Position numbers and translations under genes: made by a program. A stretch of 64,000 nt of DNA from Rubellicoccus peritrichatus (lineage in GTDB: Bacteria > Verrucomicrobiota > Verrucomicrobiia > Opitutales > Cerasicoccaceae), in assembly GCF_033100135.1 (NCBI RefSeq), contig NZ_CP136920.1, positions 3,219,001 through 3,283,000 of the forward strand. The letters are read 5' to 3'. This document shows positions 35,966 through 62,558 of the stretch, piece after piece (position 1 is the stretch's first letter; each line of letters opens with the position of its first letter). The notes below the pieces were generated by a model. The model saw only the letters and a list, made by a program, of their open reading frames with translations, did not search any database and was not told where the DNA came from.

Positions 35966-36850
35966 CTATTGGTCTGGTGCCCAGTAATCGAGCATCTCAG
36001 CAAAAGTCTCGAATGCAGGTTTTGTAAAGCCATAAGGGGCTTCCAGGTGGATGCTCACCGGAAAACCAAGTTCAAGAACACCATCAATAACACGACGGTA
36101 AAGATCGACCAGGATTTTCTTTTTCTCAGCAAAAGGTGTTTCTGATAGTCTAGTGACGAGTTCCTGTTCGGCAGCTACCTTGCTATTGCCAGGGTCTTGA
36201 ATCAGCCAGTTGATCAAGCCTACGCGTTGTTCAGCTTTGGGGACAAATCCAAATGAGAGTAGCACCTCCGGGCGGTGTGTATGTTGTTTCGCAAAATCTT
36301 TTAAAAAGCCAACAATTGCATCAGAGTAGAGAAGTTGGGTTAGGGCGAAATTCGCCCCTCTGTCGCACTTGAAGTTGAAGCGACCGTCTTCTCCTTCACG
36401 TGTTGGAATAAGGATTGCGCCGCGATTGGGCACTTTTTCTTTAAAAATATCCAAAGCATCCGTTGGAGCGACGCCATCGCCATCGCCATCGGCCATTGTC
36501 CTGGGGACACCAACAAAAATGATTCCGTCCATGCCTGCATTTTGCATTTCATCAAAGCGCCGACCAAGTGCCTCTTGATCCATGAATGCGGTTACCTGAG
36601 TGCAAAGGCCTTTGACTCCAGGCAGTTCTGGGCTGACAGCATTCCACGTTTCCAAAGTATCAAACTTCGGTTTCATCGTCACAGGACGATCCGGATCTTC
36701 TTCGATCATGCCTGGGATCATCAAATGACGAATCCTGTTCTCAATTCCGCATACTTTTGAAAGCTCCAGAATTTTCTGGGCTTCTTCAACCGCTCTGGCG
36801 GTTCCATCTTCACGATTGGGGGGGACAAATTCGAGGGCGATTGTGTTCAT
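35966..36850 (-). CDS. Mycobacterial-type methylenetetrahydrofolate reductase
   Basis: The 294-residue protein matches, from memory, the divergent reductase family described in mycobacteria, which replaces MetF. Shared phrases are NTIALEFVPPN, HLMIPGMIEED, GVKGLCTQVTAFMD, FVGVPRTM, GVAPTDALDIF and QLLYSDAIVGFL. It reduces 5,10-methylene-THF to 5-methyl-THF, the methyl donor of methionine synthase. A cobalamin-dependent methionine synthase is encoded 10 kb away (46654-50884). A 27-base motif 36 bases upstream of this start recurs immediately before that gene. Confidence 0.85.
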   Translation of the reverse strand: MNTIALEFVPPNREDGTARAVEEAQKILELSKVCGIENRIRHLMIPGMIEEDPDRPVTMKPKFDTLETWNAVSPELPGVKGLCTQVTAFMDQEALGRRFDEMQNAGMDGIIFVGVPRTMADGDGDGVAPTDALDIFKEKVPNRGAILIPTREGEDGRFNFKCDRGANFALTQLLYSDAIVGFLKDFAKQHTHRPEVLLSFGFVPKAEQRVGLINWLIQDPGNSKVAAEQELVTRLSETPFAEKKKILVDLYRRVIDGVLELGFPVSIHLEAPYGFTKPAFETFAEMLDYWAPDQ

Positions 36851-36885
36851 TATTTTAGAAATTCAAAGTATGTCGAAATGGACGC

Positions 36886-36912
36886 ATCATTATATCTTGA
36901 TGTGTTGATATG
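36886..36912 (-). promoter_or_regulatory. Candidate methionine-cycle operator upstream of MTHFR
   Basis: On the minus strand the site begins CATATCAACACATCA and continues with AGATATAATGAT. It matches the site at 46622-46648 before metH at 24 of 27 positions. Half-sites TATCAA and an imperfect TTGAT-like end, with ATATC/GATAT inside, make it nearly dyad symmetric. The arrangement recalls sites for ArsR-type SAH-responsive regulators (SahR), an attribution that is my inference. Confidence 0.7.
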
Positions 36913-45761: not shown

Positions 45762-46481
45762 TTACTTATGTGTCAGCTGCAGTAATGTTCCGCTGCCTTG
45801 AATGACGGCGTAGTCGACATCAATCATCCGGCTTTCAATACCCTGGTCCAGCAATTCTGAACGAAGTTCCTTCAGCTGAGGATACTCTTTCGTATCTGTT
45901 CCAACGAGAGGGTACAGTCGGACATCTCTGGCCACGCGACATAGTTCAATCAAACTATCACGATGAAAAGCATAATCCAGTCGGTCGGAAAACAGAAAAA
46001 GAAAGTGGCCACACAGAGCCAGGTCGAAGGTGTTGTCTTCGAACGAAAGTTTTGGAAGGGTTTCTGCCAGGTAACGTCCGGATTGATATTGAGCTTTGTA
46101 GTCAACCAGGAACTTCTCGGTCGCTCCCCAGCGCATTTCTGCAAGTTCTTCCAATGACTTGAATGTCGTTTTGACGAGATAGTCTTGCTTGCCACGAATG
46201 GAAGCCATGACCATGTCAAAATCCTCTTTTGCTCTTGTATGCGCTGCGGTTGGATCGAGCGCATAACAGGGATCAATCGCGGTTACTTTTGCACCGAATA
46301 TTGATGCCTCTGAGGCGAAACTTGATGTTCCGGCGGCAACGTCCAGGATTTGTTTGTTAGAATAATCCGATGTCGAGAAATTGAAAAAGCATTCGTACTC
46401 TTTCAGGCGTCTTCCGAAGAAAGCGATATGGTCAAAATGAACAGCTGGTGCATTTTCCTGAGAATCGGATTTCTGGCTCAT
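45762..46481 (-). CDS. Class I SAM-dependent methyltransferase
   Basis: The SAM-binding signature is visible as QILDVAAGTSSFASEASIFGAKVTAIDPC (motif I core ILDVAAGTS and acidic ID of motif II). The post-motif SFEDNTFDLALCGHFLFLF corresponds to motif IV. The substrate is unknown; proteins of this kind often carry names from uncharacterised families. The open frame starts with a GTG at 46499; I use the ATG six codons later, but neither has a good ribosome binding site. It is divergent from metH, so the 27-base site at 46622 may also affect it. Confidence 0.78.
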   Translation of the reverse strand: MSQKSDSQENAPAVHFDHIAFFGRRLKEYECFFNFSTSDYSNKQILDVAAGTSSFASEASIFGAKVTAIDPCYALDPTAAHTRAKEDFDMVMASIRGKQDYLVKTTFKSLEELAEMRWGATEKFLVDYKAQYQSGRYLAETLPKLSFEDNTFDLALCGHFLFLFSDRLDYAFHRDSLIELCRVARDVRLYPLVGTDTKEYPQLKELRSELLDQGIESRMIDVDYAVIQGSGTLLQLTHK

Positions 46482-46621
46482 GTTGATGGGATTCTTCACG
46501 TGGCTTTTTTCAAGGCAAGAGGCTTTATCGGCGCTTGCCTGCCAATAGGAGTATGAACATTCATCAGTTGAACAGATTCCAATGCTGTGTTTGTCTACAA
46601 AAATGGAATTATCGCTTGAAA

Positions 46622-46648
46622 CATATCAACAAATCAGGATATATTGAT
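46622..46648 (+). promoter_or_regulatory. Candidate methionine-cycle operator at the metH start
   Basis: The site begins CATATCAACAAATCA and continues GGATATATTGAT. It is identical at 24 of 27 positions to the site upstream of the MTHFR gene (36886-36912). It has dyad character (ATCAA and TTGAT at the ends, ATATC and GATAT overlapping). It ends five bases before the metH ATG, so a bound regulator would block translation-proximal transcription or the ribosome binding region. Confidence 0.72.
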
Positions 46649-46653
46649 CGGTT

Positions 46654-47736
46654 ATGTCGAAGTCCGTTTTTAATTACACACCAGCAGGTAAACGCATTGC
46701 AGAGCTGTTGAGCGAACGCATTGTCTTTATTGATGGTGCGATGGGCACGACAATCCAGCGCTACAAGCTTGAGGAGGCCGATTTCAGGGGGGAACGTTTT
46801 GCTGATCTGGAGAAGGACCCCAAGGGTAATAATGACCTTTTAACCATAACCCGGCCCGACATTATCCGCGACATTCACCTCGCTTTCTATCGTGCCGGCT
46901 CGGATATTGTTGAGACCAACACCTTTTCGGCCACCTCGATTGCGCAGGCGGATTACGGCCTGGAGGCTTTGGCTTATGAATTGAATGTCGAGTCGGCTAA
47001 ACTGGCGCGTTCAGCCGCTGAAGAAGTTATGAAAGAGGATCCTGGGCGCGAGTGTTTTGTTGCCGGAGCTTTTGGGCCAACCAATCGGACGGCTTCCCTT
47101 TCCCCGGATGTTAACCGTCCAGAGTATCGTAATGTCACATTTATGGAACTCAAAGACGCTTACTTGGAGCAAGCCCGTGGCTTGTTTGACGGAGGTGCGG
47201 ATGTGTTTCTGATTGAGACGATTTTTGATACTTTGAATGCCAAGGCCGCCATTTTTGCGGTTGAGGAGTTTTTCGAAGACAAGACTGAGCGTTTGCCAGT
47301 CATGATTTCCGGGACGATCACCGACCAGTCGGGTCGAACGCTTTCAGGGCAGACAACCGAGGCTTTCTGGAATAGTGTGCGTCATGCTAACCCATTATGT
47401 GTTGGAATGAATTGCGCCCTGGGTGCCGATTTGATGCGCCCTTACATTGAGGAGCTTTCGCGTATCGCCGAGTGTAATGTATCCTGTTACCCGAATGCAG
47501 GTTTGCCTGATCCCCTTTCTCCAACCGGTTATCCTGAAGGTCCGGCAGACACCGCCGGCCACCTTGAAAGTTTCGCCAAGGATGGTTTGCTCAATATGGT
47601 TGGCGGTTGCTGTGGAACCACGCCCGATCATATCGCCGAGATTCAAAATGTGCTTTCACAATATCCGAAACGAGAGATTCCCGAAATCGAACCGGCACTC
47701 CGCCTGAGTGGTCTTGAACCACTGAATATCAGCTGA
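46654..47736 (+). CDS. metH: Methionine synthase, homocysteine-binding part (split MetH)
   Basis: The 360-residue product equals the N-terminal module of cobalamin-dependent MetH, a TIM barrel that binds homocysteine through zinc. Zinc ligands are in GMNCALG and [11 protein letters not shown]. The N-terminus [15 protein letters not shown] is a family signature. The protein ends at [12 protein letters not shown], which in one-piece MetH is the linker leading into the folate domain, so the break is at a natural domain border. The stop codon directly abuts the left arm of a GxxExxY cassette. The remaining MetH domains are encoded at 48197-50884. Confidence 0.93.
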
Positions 47737-47760
47737 TTTTTTACCACGGAGGCACGGAGA
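47737..47760 (+). repeat. Left inverted-repeat arm of the GxxExxY cassette
   Basis: TTTTTTACCACGGAGGCACG with GAGA following is the reverse complement of 48141-48173, except that the right arm has an extra nine-base unit (GGCACAGAG). The arm begins immediately after the TGA of the homocysteine-binding MetH gene, and its last base is the A of the GxxExxY start codon. Confidence 0.85.
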
Positions 47761-48134
47761 TGTTAGAGGAAGACTTAACGGAGAAGATCATTGGTGCTGC
47801 TATTGAGGTCCACAAATATTGGGGGCCTGGCTTGAATGAGAGCATCTATGAGTTAAGTCTTTGTCAGGAACTTTCAATGCGTGGACTCTCTTTTGAGCAC
47901 CAACATTATCTTCCCTTAATATATAAGGATGTTCGGATTGGAGATGACTTACGATTGGATCTCTGGGTTGAGAAAAAAGTAGTGGTCGAGAACAAATGCA
48001 TTTCAAACATTTTACCAGTCCATGAGTCTCAATTATTAACTTATATGCGCCTTACCAAATCTCGTGTAGGGCTCCTAATTAACTATCACGTTCCTGTCCT
48101 GACAAAGGGAGGAATTAAACGCATGGTCCTCTAA
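47760..48134 (+). CDS. GxxExxY family protein (PD-(D/E)XK-like)
   Basis: This 124-residue protein has the family signature GPGLNESIYE and the end SRVGLLINYHVP..GGIKRMVL. The family is placed in the PD-(D/E)XK nuclease-like superfamily in Pfam, and the pattern LDLWVEKKVVVENK fits the D...ExK active-site line. Its biological role has not been established to my knowledge. It is bounded on both sides by arms of an inverted repeat and lies between the two halves of methionine synthase, in the same direction. The start codon overlaps the left arm and uses GGAG within it. Confidence 0.9.
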   Translation: MLEEDLTEKIIGAAIEVHKYWGPGLNESIYELSLCQELSMRGLSFEHQHYLPLIYKDVRIGDDLRLDLWVEKKVVVENKCISNILPVHESQLLTYMRLTKSRVGLLINYHVPVLTKGGIKRMVL

Positions 48135-48140
48135 GTAATC

Positions 48141-48173
48141 TCTCCGTGCCTCTGTGCCCTCCGTGGTAAAAAA
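48141..48173 (+). repeat. Right inverted-repeat arm of the GxxExxY cassette
   Basis: TCTCCGTGCC and TCTGTGCCCTCCGTGGTAAA form the reverse complement of the left arm at 47737-47760 with one extra nine-base unit. The arm lies seven bases after the GxxExxY stop. It resembles the longer arms at 61111 and 61305, which use the same pattern CCACG-purines-GGCACA. Confidence 0.85.
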
Positions 48174-48196
48174 GTAACATAAAAAATTTCATAAGT

Positions 48197-50884
48197 ATGT
48201 CTAACGCAGCACAGCAATTTATCCTCGTTGGGGAACGAACCAACGTCACCGGTTCGCCACGTTTTCGTAAGCTCATTAAGGAAGACCGCTTTGACGATGC
48301 CCTCGAAGTCGCGCGTCAGCAGGTTGAGAGTGGTGCCCATGTCATTGATGTGAACTTCGATGAAGGGTTGCTTGATTCTGAGGCTTGCATGCATCACTTC
48401 CTGAATTTGATGGCGGCTGAGCCGGATATCAGTCGCATACCGGTCATGGTTGACTCTTCGAAGTGGAGTGTGATCGAGGCCGGGCTTCGTTGCCTGCAAG
48501 GAAAGGGAATCGTCAACTCCATCAGTTTGAAAGAGGGCGTAGAGGTTTTTAAAAAGCATGCACGCTTGATTCAGCGCTATGGCGCTGCCACTGTGGTGAT
48601 GGCTTTCGATGAGGAAGGTCAGGCTGCGACAAAGGAAGACAAAGTCCGCATTTGCAAACGTGCCTACGATATCCTCGTTAACGAAGTCAATTTTGATCCG
48701 CAGGATATTATCTTTGACCCCAATATCCTCACCGTGGCGACCGGGATGGATGAACACAATAACTATGCGGTCGATTTTATTGAAGCGGTAACCGAGATCA
48801 AGCGGCTCTGCCCGGGTGCTCGATGCAGTGGTGGCGTCAGTAACATTTCCTTCTCATTCCGTGGTAACAATCCGGTTCGTGAGGCAATGCATAGTGCTTT
48901 TCTGTATCATGCCATTCGTGCCGGCCTTGATATGGGAATCGTGAACGCGGGAATGGTTGGTGTTTATGATGACATCGACAAGGAACTCCTTGAGCGCGTT
49001 GAAGACGTTTTGCTCAATCGCCGTGATGATGCCACCGAGCGACTCATTACTTTTGCAGAAACCGTAAAAGGCGAGGGCAAGAAGGAAGATGATTCAACCA
49101 AGCTGGCCTGGCGTGAGGGATCGGTTGAAGAACGTATCAGCCACGCACTCGTCAAAGGTATCGCCGATTACATTGAAGCCGATACGGAGGAAGCACGTCA
49201 AAAACTGAACCGGCCGCTGGAAGTGATTGAAGGGCCGTTGATGGACGGGATGAAAGTCGTCGGTAAGCTTTTCGGTGATGGCAAAATGTTCCTTCCGCAA
49301 GTGGTTAAAAGTGCGCGTGTGATGAAGAAAGCTGTCGCCTACCTGACGCCTTTCATGGAGAAGGAGAAAGAAGGGCAGGAGGGTAATGCTCAGGGTGTCT
49401 TTGTTATCGCGACGGTTAAAGGTGATGTTCATGACATCGGTAAGAACATCGTTGCTGTGGTTTTGGCCTGTAATAGTTGGAAGGTGGTCGATCTTGGTGT
49501 GATGGTTTCCTGTGACCAGATTCTGCAGAAGGCCAAAGAGGAAAATGCTGATATTGTCGGTATGTCAGGATTGATTACACCATCCCTGGATGAAATGATT
49601 CATAATGCGCAGGAGATGAAGCGTCAGGGCTTTGATGTTCCGCTTTTACTTGGAGGCGCAACCACGAGTAAGGCGCATACTGCGATTAAGATTGCTCCAG
49701 AGTATGATCATCCGGTTGTCCATGTCGCAGATGCTTCTCTGGTTGTTAATGTGTGTGCGGATCTTGGAAGTCCAGAGCGTCGTGACGCTTACATTTCAGA
49801 GTTAAACGCAGATCATGAGCGTCAACGTGAACGCTTTGCCCGCAACCAGAACAAGACGAAATTTCTGAGCATTGGTGAAGCCCGCGAAAAGTCTGTCAAA
49901 ATCGATTGGTCGAACTACGAAGCACCGAAGCCCAGTCGTTATGGTATTGTGCATTGGGATCAAATCGACCTTGGGCGCATCGCGGAATACATTGACTGGT
50001 CGCCTTTCTTTTGGACGTGGGAGCTCAAAGGTGTTTTCCCAAAAATCCTTAGCCACGATAAGTACGGTGCGGAGGCAACCAAGTTGTATGATGATGCACG
50101 TCGTCTCATTGATGAGATCGTTCGTAACAAGCGTTTCCGCTGTCGTGCGGTGACCGGTATCTGGCCTGCGAATTCCATTGGTGACGATGTTGCGCTTTAT
50201 GGAATCGATGGGAATGGGGACCAGGAGCTCGCGCGTTTTCACTTCCTGCGTCAGCAAAAGGAGAAGACCGGGAATGATCAGACATATCGCTGCCTGGCTG
50301 ATTATGTTGCTCCCAAAGACTCGGGCAAGGCAGACATCATGGGGGCTTTCGCCTGCACCTCAGGTGAGGAAGTTGATACCTATGCCAAGACTTTCGAAGA
50401 TAAGGGTGACGATTATACCGGCATCATGATTAAGGCAATCGGAGATCGTTTTGCAGAAGCTTGCGCGGAGTGGTTGCACAAACAAATCCGTGACGATCTT
50501 GGCTTTGGTGCGGAAGAGGGTTTTTCCGGCAAGGCAGGACTCTTGCACAAACCGGGTGAGGTCAATGAGCATGTTGCCTGGATGGTGAAGGAGCAATACC
50601 AGGGCATTCGCCCAGCAGCAGGCTATCCGGCATGTCCTGACCACACCGAGAAAGATGGTTTGTGGGAATTGCTCAATGCCGAGTCGCTAACAGGAATTTC
50701 TTTAACCGAAAGTCGTGCTATGAATCCACCGGCTTCAGTGAGTGGATTGTATTTTACGCATCCCGAGGCCAAATACTTCAACGTGGGCACAATCGACCGG
50801 GATCAGGCCGAAGAGTACGCCAGACGCAAGGGCGTGGAAATTCCCTTTATGGAGAAGTGGCTCCGGCCCAATCTCGAAGGCTGA
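48197..50884 (+). CDS. metH: Methionine synthase, folate-, cobalamin- and SAM-binding part (split MetH)
   Basis: The 895-residue product holds the rest of MetH. The pterin-binding domain (about 1-260) begins [20 protein letters not shown]. The cap and cobalamin domains (about 300-560) include the cofactor His motif in [10 protein letters not shown]. The reactivation domain (about 575-895) has [15 protein letters not shown], which contacts SAM. Together with 46654-47736 the two proteins add up to 1255 residues, about the size of one-piece MetH. The start at ATG 48197 adds about seven residues not found in one-piece forms. The gene is separated from its partner only by the cassette. Confidence 0.95.
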
Positions 50885-61020: not shown

Positions 61021-61110
61021 GAATAGGTCAAAAACCTATCCATAGAGCGGAGATTCTTTCGTTTAGCAATGGTCTTTTCTCTAGTAAACTGACGTTAAGA
61101 ATTTTGCATA

Positions 61111-61141
61111 GCCACGAAAAGGCACAAAAATTCACGAAAAG
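61111..61141 (+). repeat. Left arm of 225-bp palindromic element
   Basis: GCCACGAAAAGGCACAAAAA followed by TTCACGAAAAG is the reverse complement of 61305-61335 with one mismatch in 31. The arm shares its pattern with the GxxExxY cassette arms: CCACG, purines, then GGCACA, purines, then CACG. Confidence 0.9.
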
Positions 61142-61155
61142 CCTGTGTTGCGAAA

Positions 61156-61282
61156 TTGAGTTAATCCAAATAAATAATCTCAGGCCAAGCCGCAAAGAAG
61201 ATAAACGAAGTAAATGCCTGGCAACTTTGCGTCTTGATCGAGGTAGGCGTGAAGAATGTTTCATACTTACGTTTGTACTTAA
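61156..61282. repeat. Palindromic intergenic repeat, copy B (core of the nested element)
   Basis: The core lies between the two 31-base arms. It starts AATAATCTCAGGCCAAGCCG and contains CGCAAAG and the facing CTTTGCGTCTTG. It is homologous to copy A at 56070-56200. No open frame of note is inside, so this may be a nonautonomous relative of the GxxExxY cassette. Confidence 0.7.
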
Positions 61283-61304
61283 GATTTTGAACTCACCACA
61301 CTCG

Positions 61305-61335
61305 CTTTTGGTGAATTTTTGTGCCTTTTCGTGGC
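61305..61335 (+). repeat. Right arm of 225-bp palindromic element
   Basis: CTTTTGGTGAATTTTTGTGC followed by CTTTTCGTGGC pairs with the left arm at 61111-61141 (30 of 31). Fully base-paired, the arms would extrude a hairpin with the copy B core at its tip. Confidence 0.9.
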
Positions 61336-61399
61336 TAAATAGAATTCATTTTTGTGTCTTGGCGCGAGCCTCGTTTTCGTGGCACCCTTTTTAGATAGA

Positions 61400-62483: not shown

Positions 62484-62558
62484 TTTTTGACAGAATTTAC
62501 GGAATTAACAGAATTAGCTTACTAAAAATTCCTTTAATTCCGTAAATTCTGTCAAAAA
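62484..62558. repeat. Long hairpin repeat (GACAGAATTTACGGAATT type)
   Basis: TTTTTGACAGAATTTACGGA with ATTAACAGAATT (62484-62515) faces AATTCCTTTAATTCCGTAAA with TTCTGTCAAAAA (62527-62558): about 29 of 32 positions pair over an 11-base loop. Sequences like this are common between genes in several bacterial phyla and occur beside GxxExxY genes, as I recall. The element sits between queG and amt, which are convergent. Confidence 0.85.

Follow-up and report, generated by a model that had tools for sequence, protein, structure and literature searches.

The genes of the methyl-donor (SAM) cycle of Rubellicoccus peritrichatus appear, on the evidence of sequence comparison, to be controlled by one repressor acting through three near-identical operators. 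Two of the operators are predicted in the window, by which we mean the whole analysed stretch of 64,000 nucleotides (C1:3219001-3283000 of the host genome, which is one contig of 5.8 Mb). They precede metH and the gene of a mycobacterial-type methylenetetrahydrofolate reductase (MTHFR_2), and the third precedes a metK-ahcY pair. We assign a probability of roughly 0.88 to the reading that the sites are operators of a SahR-type repressor, released by SAH, over metH, MTHFR and metK-ahcY. Repressors of this kind are known from other phyla, and Verrucomicrobiota would be a new phylum for the SahR type. The freshest point is that a flavin-independent MTHFR is predicted to stand in place of metF behind the same operator. 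These observations name, for the methyl cycle of Verrucomicrobiota, a regulator with its operator and targets that can be put to the test, and suggest a SahR-type circuit spanning phyla. Outside mycobacteria, they also link a non-canonical MTHFR by its regulation to the methionine cycle; this link supports the function of the enzyme, and the observations offer a possible case of an enzyme that was swapped while its operator was kept.

Table 1. Positions of the genes and predicted control elements in the window
Feature	Position	Strand	Evidence or remark
MTHFR_2, mycobacterial-type methylenetetrahydrofolate reductase	35966..36850	-	PF19345 MTHFR_2, E 1.1e-144
MTHFR operator (predicted)	36886..36912	-	core 36886-36909, ATCAACACATCAAGATATAATGAT, 1/16 mismatches
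Possible sigma-70 promoter of metH, TTGAAA-18-TATATT	46616..46645	+	under operator; 1 found vs shuffle mean 0.8
metH operator (predicted)	46622..46648	+	core 46625-46648, ATCAACAAATCAGGATATATTGAT, 0/16 mismatches
metH first part, homocysteine-binding domain	46654..47736	+	
GxxExxY-family gene between metH parts	47760..48134	+	TIGR04256, E 1.7e-39
metH second part, remaining methionine synthase domains	48197..50884	+	

Three near-identical sites in the host genome

The first-pass annotation had described a 27-bp motif with dyad-like half-sites, placed in the same orientation upstream of metH and of the MTHFR gene. The two sites are indeed present where it had put them (Table 1), with 24 of 27 bases in agreement. 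From the end of the site to the start codon of its gene there are 5 nt at metH (ATG at 46654) and 35 nt at MTHFR (ATG at 36850). When all 27-mers of the window were compared with each other, nine distinct pairs with at least 23 matches were obtained, among them the metH/MTHFR pair; six of the remaining eight consist of copies less than 600 bp apart. With the pattern ATATCAANNNATCANGATATANTGAT and up to three mismatches, the metH and MTHFR sites were the sole matches in the window (none of 100 shuffles gave a match), and the same two sites were the only matches in the 5.8-Mb genome.

The half-sites form the inverted repeat ATCAA-N3-ATC-NN-GAT-N3-TTGAT. Searching with the symmetric core ATCAANNNATCNNGATNNNTTGAT added a third, perfect site upstream of metK-ahcY (C1:1016661, 0 mismatches). 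The asymmetric 27-bp pattern was rejected as a tool for regulon searches, as it missed the metK site that the symmetric core recovers. At one mismatch or less, the core is found at three places in the host genome, namely metK-ahcY (0), metH (0) and MTHFR (1), compared with 0.08 expected from base composition. Three more places with exactly two mismatches correspond to the chance level (1.8 expected from base composition at up to two mismatches; 1 with the reversed-pattern control). The motif is not spread over many unrelated loci, all three places at one mismatch or less being at SAM-cycle genes. The proposal that metK or ahcY might carry the motif was borne out by the perfect site upstream of metK, with ahcY behind it. 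These two genes are on the same strand with about 70 bp between their aligned parts, and probably form one operon. Taken together, the three sites span the steps that make SAM, hydrolyse SAH, form 5-methyl-THF and methylate homocysteine.

A candidate regulator of SahR architecture

The host genome encodes one protein with an ArsR HTH and a methyltransferase domain (311 aa, C1:4908602-4909534, outside the window); other ArsR-domain genes gave weaker matches. Judged by its domains, the protein has the SahR architecture: the N-terminal ArsR HTH was recognized by PF01022 (E 1.4e-12) and, above its cut-off, by NF033788, and the C-terminal methylase-related domain by PF13847 (E 1e-22) and by other methyltransferase families. 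Residues D152, G154, G156 and G158, in a stretch that we take to be the SAM-binding loop, are invariant across 29 aligned SahR-type sequences. An AlphaFold2 model of the protein had a mean pLDDT of 88.7 and a pTM of 0.57, and the arrangement of the domains is therefore uncertain. In a Foldseek search with this model the best 50 matches were all of the methyltransferase fold, with TM-scores to the query of about 0.4-0.5, and several of the nearest solved folds carry SAM or SAH.

No site was found in the upstream region of the host sahR gene, and an autoregulatory site was absent at 29 of the 30 sahR loci examined, the host among them; the exception, G031, has a site upstream of its own sahR. 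At the host sahR locus (L259 19-2538, outside the window), 10 nt separate the start of sahR from a greA-like gene ahead of it, and a greA-like gene is present in 23 of the 30 sahR loci. Its position ahead of sahR may explain the missing operator.

Sites, target genes and regulator occur together in relatives

In a search of 54 related genomes (host included) the 27-bp pattern matched in 28. The contexts among the matches listed were metK, metH, canonical metF and, in G031, the gene with ArsR and methyltransferase domains, and a few matches had no such neighbour (L014, L016, L017 and L020). A weight matrix was trained on 42 sites of the relatives, excluding these four loci, whose neighbours are unlike methionine genes. 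It gave scores of 38.6, 35.3 and 32.0 for the host MTHFR, metH and metK sites, respectively. The next non-overlapping place in the scanned stretches scored 11.7, and the best place near the host sahR scored -6.6.

Relatives of the SahR-type protein at E <1e-60 were found in 31 of the 54 genomes, host included (in G035 as two pieces on two contigs). A site, defined in the relatives as at most two mismatches over 16 fixed positions in the roughly 350 nt ahead of the gene, was present in examined genomes with SahR at metK in 26/30, at metH in 28/30 and at metF in 21/23, compared with 1/13, 0/6 and 1/9, respectively, in examined genomes without SahR. Genomes with a gene match but no locus were left out (6/42 for metH, 3/46 for metK and 8/40 for metF). 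The Fisher p values, which ignore kinship, were 1.4e-6 (metK), 1.4e-5 (metH) and 3.6e-5 (metF). Among the genomes without SahR only G026, a 50% complete assembly, has a site, and it has one at metK as well as at metF. Most relatives that carry SahR thus have the motif ahead of metK, metH and metF, and the shared ArsR-type, SahR-like regulator envisaged in the first-pass annotation is well supported by comparative genomics.

The association was also examined in 194 genomes of Verrucomicrobiota, where a SahR-type protein was called at E 1e-40 or better and considered close at 46% identity or more. Such a protein was found in 73 genomes, 52 of which had a close one. Sites of one mismatch or none were present in 28 of the 52 genomes with close SahR, in 1 of the 21 with distant SahR and in 7 of the 121 with no SahR (kinship ignored). 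Among the 24 close-SahR genomes without a site at this threshold, 14 belong to family f14; two of these, G022 and G043, have weaker sites (2-3 mismatches) at metH and metK. Of 30 returned site loci, the 23 that were new were inspected, one per genome, also where a genome has a second or third site (e.g. G187, G214 and G156). In the close-SahR genomes metK or metH adjoins the site in 15/15 loci; in the other genomes none of 8 loci had metK, sahR, ahcY, metH or metF.

Motif and regulator are most strongly linked by the arrangement in genus g56 of family f29. Of its 10 SahR-bearing genomes, 9 have a site 25-31 nt ahead of the first codon of sahR in the alignment, and no site was found in the 7 genomes of this genus without SahR. 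In the six of these nine genomes that were inspected, sahR and metK-ahcY diverge from a short gap, and the site is in that gap. As to the earlier question whether an ArsR-type regulator gene itself carries the motif, the host sahR does not, and sahR in G031 and in nine genomes of another family does.

Relation to known SahR and SamR systems

The founding SahR paper is reportedly that of Novichkov and others (2014), and proteobacterial SahR presumably has a methyltransferase-related domain besides the ArsR HTH. According to passages of PMC4239095, SahR responds to SAH, is found mostly in alpha- and deltaproteobacteria and in two gammaproteobacterial groups, has a core regulon that includes sahR, ahcY, metH, metF and metK, and recognizes in Proteobacteria a 20-bp palindrome. 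The same passages describe SamR of Xanthomonadales, a SahR relative with a 24-bp palindrome and a regulon of metK, metE, metF and metH genes from which ahcY is absent; as SAM-cycle genes other than metK are missing from it, SamR was proposed by these authors to sense SAM. SamR sites and the SahR sites of gammaproteobacteria are said there to share the element ATC-10 nt-GAT. By inspection, it occurs twice in the 24-bp core studied here.

The host system resembles that of proteobacterial SahR in its protein of ArsR HTH and methyltransferase-related domain, in its targets (metK, ahcY, metH and an MTHFR gene as the counterpart of metF) and in its palindromic site. It differs in belonging to another phylum, in having MTHFR_2 as a target instead of metF and, by description, in its 24-bp core with outer ATCAA/TTGAT arms, compared with the published 20-bp palindrome. 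Moreover, sahR is a core target in Proteobacteria, whereas in the order examined here it is mostly without a site. SamR, as described in the passages cited, is likewise a SahR-like protein with a 24-bp palindrome at methionine genes; in contrast to its regulon, which is without ahcY, the host metK-ahcY pair carries a site. Judged from the listings, there was no report of SahR in Verrucomicrobiota among the matches listed from openly licensed PMC papers.

Sequence records of Sinorhizobium meliloti and Rhizobium leguminosarum contain a homologue, 30-33% identical, directly before metF. In both rhizobial sahR-metF upstream regions a site with 2/16 mismatches was found, and 0 of 500 shuffles of each region were as good. 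The best match of the S. meliloti protein in the host genome is the SahR-type protein (E 1.5e-35; next 2.1e-8), and the two are best matches both ways, the S. meliloti side of the comparison being one replicon. The identification of the S. meliloti protein as SahR rests on its position before metF and on passages of a paper on Ensifer aridi.

Proposed mechanism and alternative explanations

From this pattern we infer binding by the SahR-type protein, repression, and SAH as the signal. A dimer of the protein would bind the 24-bp inverted repeat at the metH, MTHFR and metK-ahcY promoters and, while bound, keep the expression of these genes low. Build-up of SAH would fill the methyltransferase-like pocket and make the protein leave the DNA. 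ahcY, MTHFR, metH and metK would then be induced together, so that SAH would be cleared, and methionine and SAM remade. The position of the metH site over the possible promoter TTGAAA-18-TATATT would fit repression by blocking of the polymerase.

The main rival, which we consider unlikely, keeps the regulator and the operators and takes SAM to be the signal, as proposed for SamR. It could draw on the SamR precedent of a 24-bp palindrome and a regulon with metK, metE, metF and metH in the passages of PMC4239095, and on the fact that the nearest solved folds hold SAM or SAH; however, the SamR argument rests on the missing SAM-cycle genes beyond metK, and in the host metK-ahcY pair ahcY stands behind a site. 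It is still less probable that another ArsR-type or an unrelated regulator binds the sites and that the SahR-type gene merely co-occurs with them. The further ArsR-domain genes of the host genome (weak matches) and the distance of the host sahR from its presumed targets would suit such a regulator, but in 10 genomes from two families sahR itself has the site, and this and the similar site at the rhizobial homologue argue for the SahR-type protein.

It is very improbable that a strong promoter (-35/-10), and no operator, accounts for most of the shared 27 bp. In favour of this, the metH site overlies TTGAAA-18-TATATT and the MTHFR site contains TATAAT. The number of promoter matches at metH, one compared with a mean of 0.8 in shuffles, is weak evidence alone, and the promoter scans at metH, MTHFR and metK showed no gain over shuffles. 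For MTHFR the scan flagged a different place, between the site and the gene, and at the perfect repeat of the host metK it flagged none. Besides, the presence of the site tracks that of the sahR gene, and the sites of the relatives, whose aligned consensus is ATCAACATATC-AT-GATATGTTGAT, are symmetric about their centre, with a mean of 8.94 of 12 pairs in 79 sites, a value favoured by the selection of these sites with a symmetric pattern. Shifting the centre by 4 bp in either direction gave a weaker symmetry of 6.8-6.9, which arises because ATATC is repeated, and most other centres gave 2.9-4.1. Operators of the 12-2-12 form are known from the ArsR/SmtB family, and the layout of the motif is similar. 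Least probable of all is that the leaders contain an RNA element, either a riboswitch or an attenuator. Inverted repeats can fold, and at 36881-36906 there is a hairpin that was flagged as terminator-like; it lies on the strand that does not encode MTHFR. Nevertheless, neither in the window nor at metK-ahcY did any Rfam riboswitch reach the gathering threshold, and the 5 nt between the metH site and the ATG leave little room for a leader after the site. In relatives without SahR, neither an Rfam riboswitch at gathering threshold nor the site was found at 12 metK and 6 metH loci.

An MTHFR of the mycobacterial type behind the predicted operator

The identity of the MTHFR gene was as given in the first-pass annotation: its product covers positions 2-295 of the 295 of PF19345. 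It is near the solved chains 8bgr, 8qpj and 7wmw, which are named MTHFR and which we take to represent the flavin-free type, and, judged by its family, it probably has a flavin-free, NADH-dependent activity. No match to TIGR00676 (metF) was found in the host genome. According to passages of PMC11094777, flavin-independent MTHFR (Mfr) has been identified only in mycobacteria. The window protein resembles Mfr (MSMEG_6596, MSMEG_6649 and Rv2172c) in its whole-length match to PF19345; the difference is that the gene is found here in Opitutales-like genomes, at three loci behind a predicted SahR-type operator.

Among the 54 genomes, MTHFR_2 is present in three (G000, G032 and G049). TIGR00676 matched in none of these three, and 11 further genomes have neither MTHFR_2 nor TIGR00676 metF. 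Seven verrucomicrobial MTHFR_2 loci were compared (host, L032-L036 and L082), the protein of G032 being identical to that of L036 and the protein of G049 to that of L035. An operator ending 33-35 nt before the ATG is present at three of the seven (host, L032 and L033). The other four loci, a single clade, are without it, as are the remaining 74 MTHFR_2 loci compared, mostly of Mycobacterium. Of 80 MTHFR control loci, 78 had at least six mismatches to the site. MTHFR_2 was also seen in records labelled as Phycisphaeraceae and Alcanivorax MAGs.

In L032 and L033, both from Opitutaceae MAGs, the operator is preceded by rlmN and followed by MTHFR_2; G040 and G047 have the same order with metF as the last gene. 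rlmN was seen in 2 of 32 metF genomes, most of the loci spanning just about 1.5 kb upstream. The shared order suggests that MTHFR_2 replaced metF in place at the rlmN locus. The host MTHFR_2 is located elsewhere, adjoining two ClC channel genes. We tentatively propose, at somewhat less than even odds, that in Opitutales a flavin-independent MTHFR displaced the unrelated metF behind a resident SahR operator and later moved together with the operator to its present place in the host, and that the operator was lost in a sister clade. If this is true, SahR control of the SAM cycle is old in Verrucomicrobiota and the regulatory slot outlived its enzyme.

The metH locus and other features of the window

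The gene downstream of the site at 46622-46648 is metH, as annotated at first, except that it is split into two frames around a GxxExxY-family gene. The break in metH (46654-50884) falls between the homocysteine and folate domains, and the GxxExxY gene lies in the gap. Short frames of the metH first part (361-385 aa) are also present in G001, G002, G022, G043 and G047, and in G002 the two metH parts are 17 bp apart. Most of the other metH frames listed have 1,212-1,352 aa, and a few are of intermediate length, perhaps cut or frameshifted.

A methyltransferase-like gene (45762-46499) diverges from metH across the operator, and a gene of similar start (L114 4195-4899) is found near metH in G002. 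The metH operator might serve both directions.

Elsewhere in the window there are a perfect 27-base inverted repeat at 61109/61311 (61109-61337) and an inverted pair at 62489/62527 with 25 of 27 matches (62489-62553), both of which are possibly parts of repeat or mobile elements.
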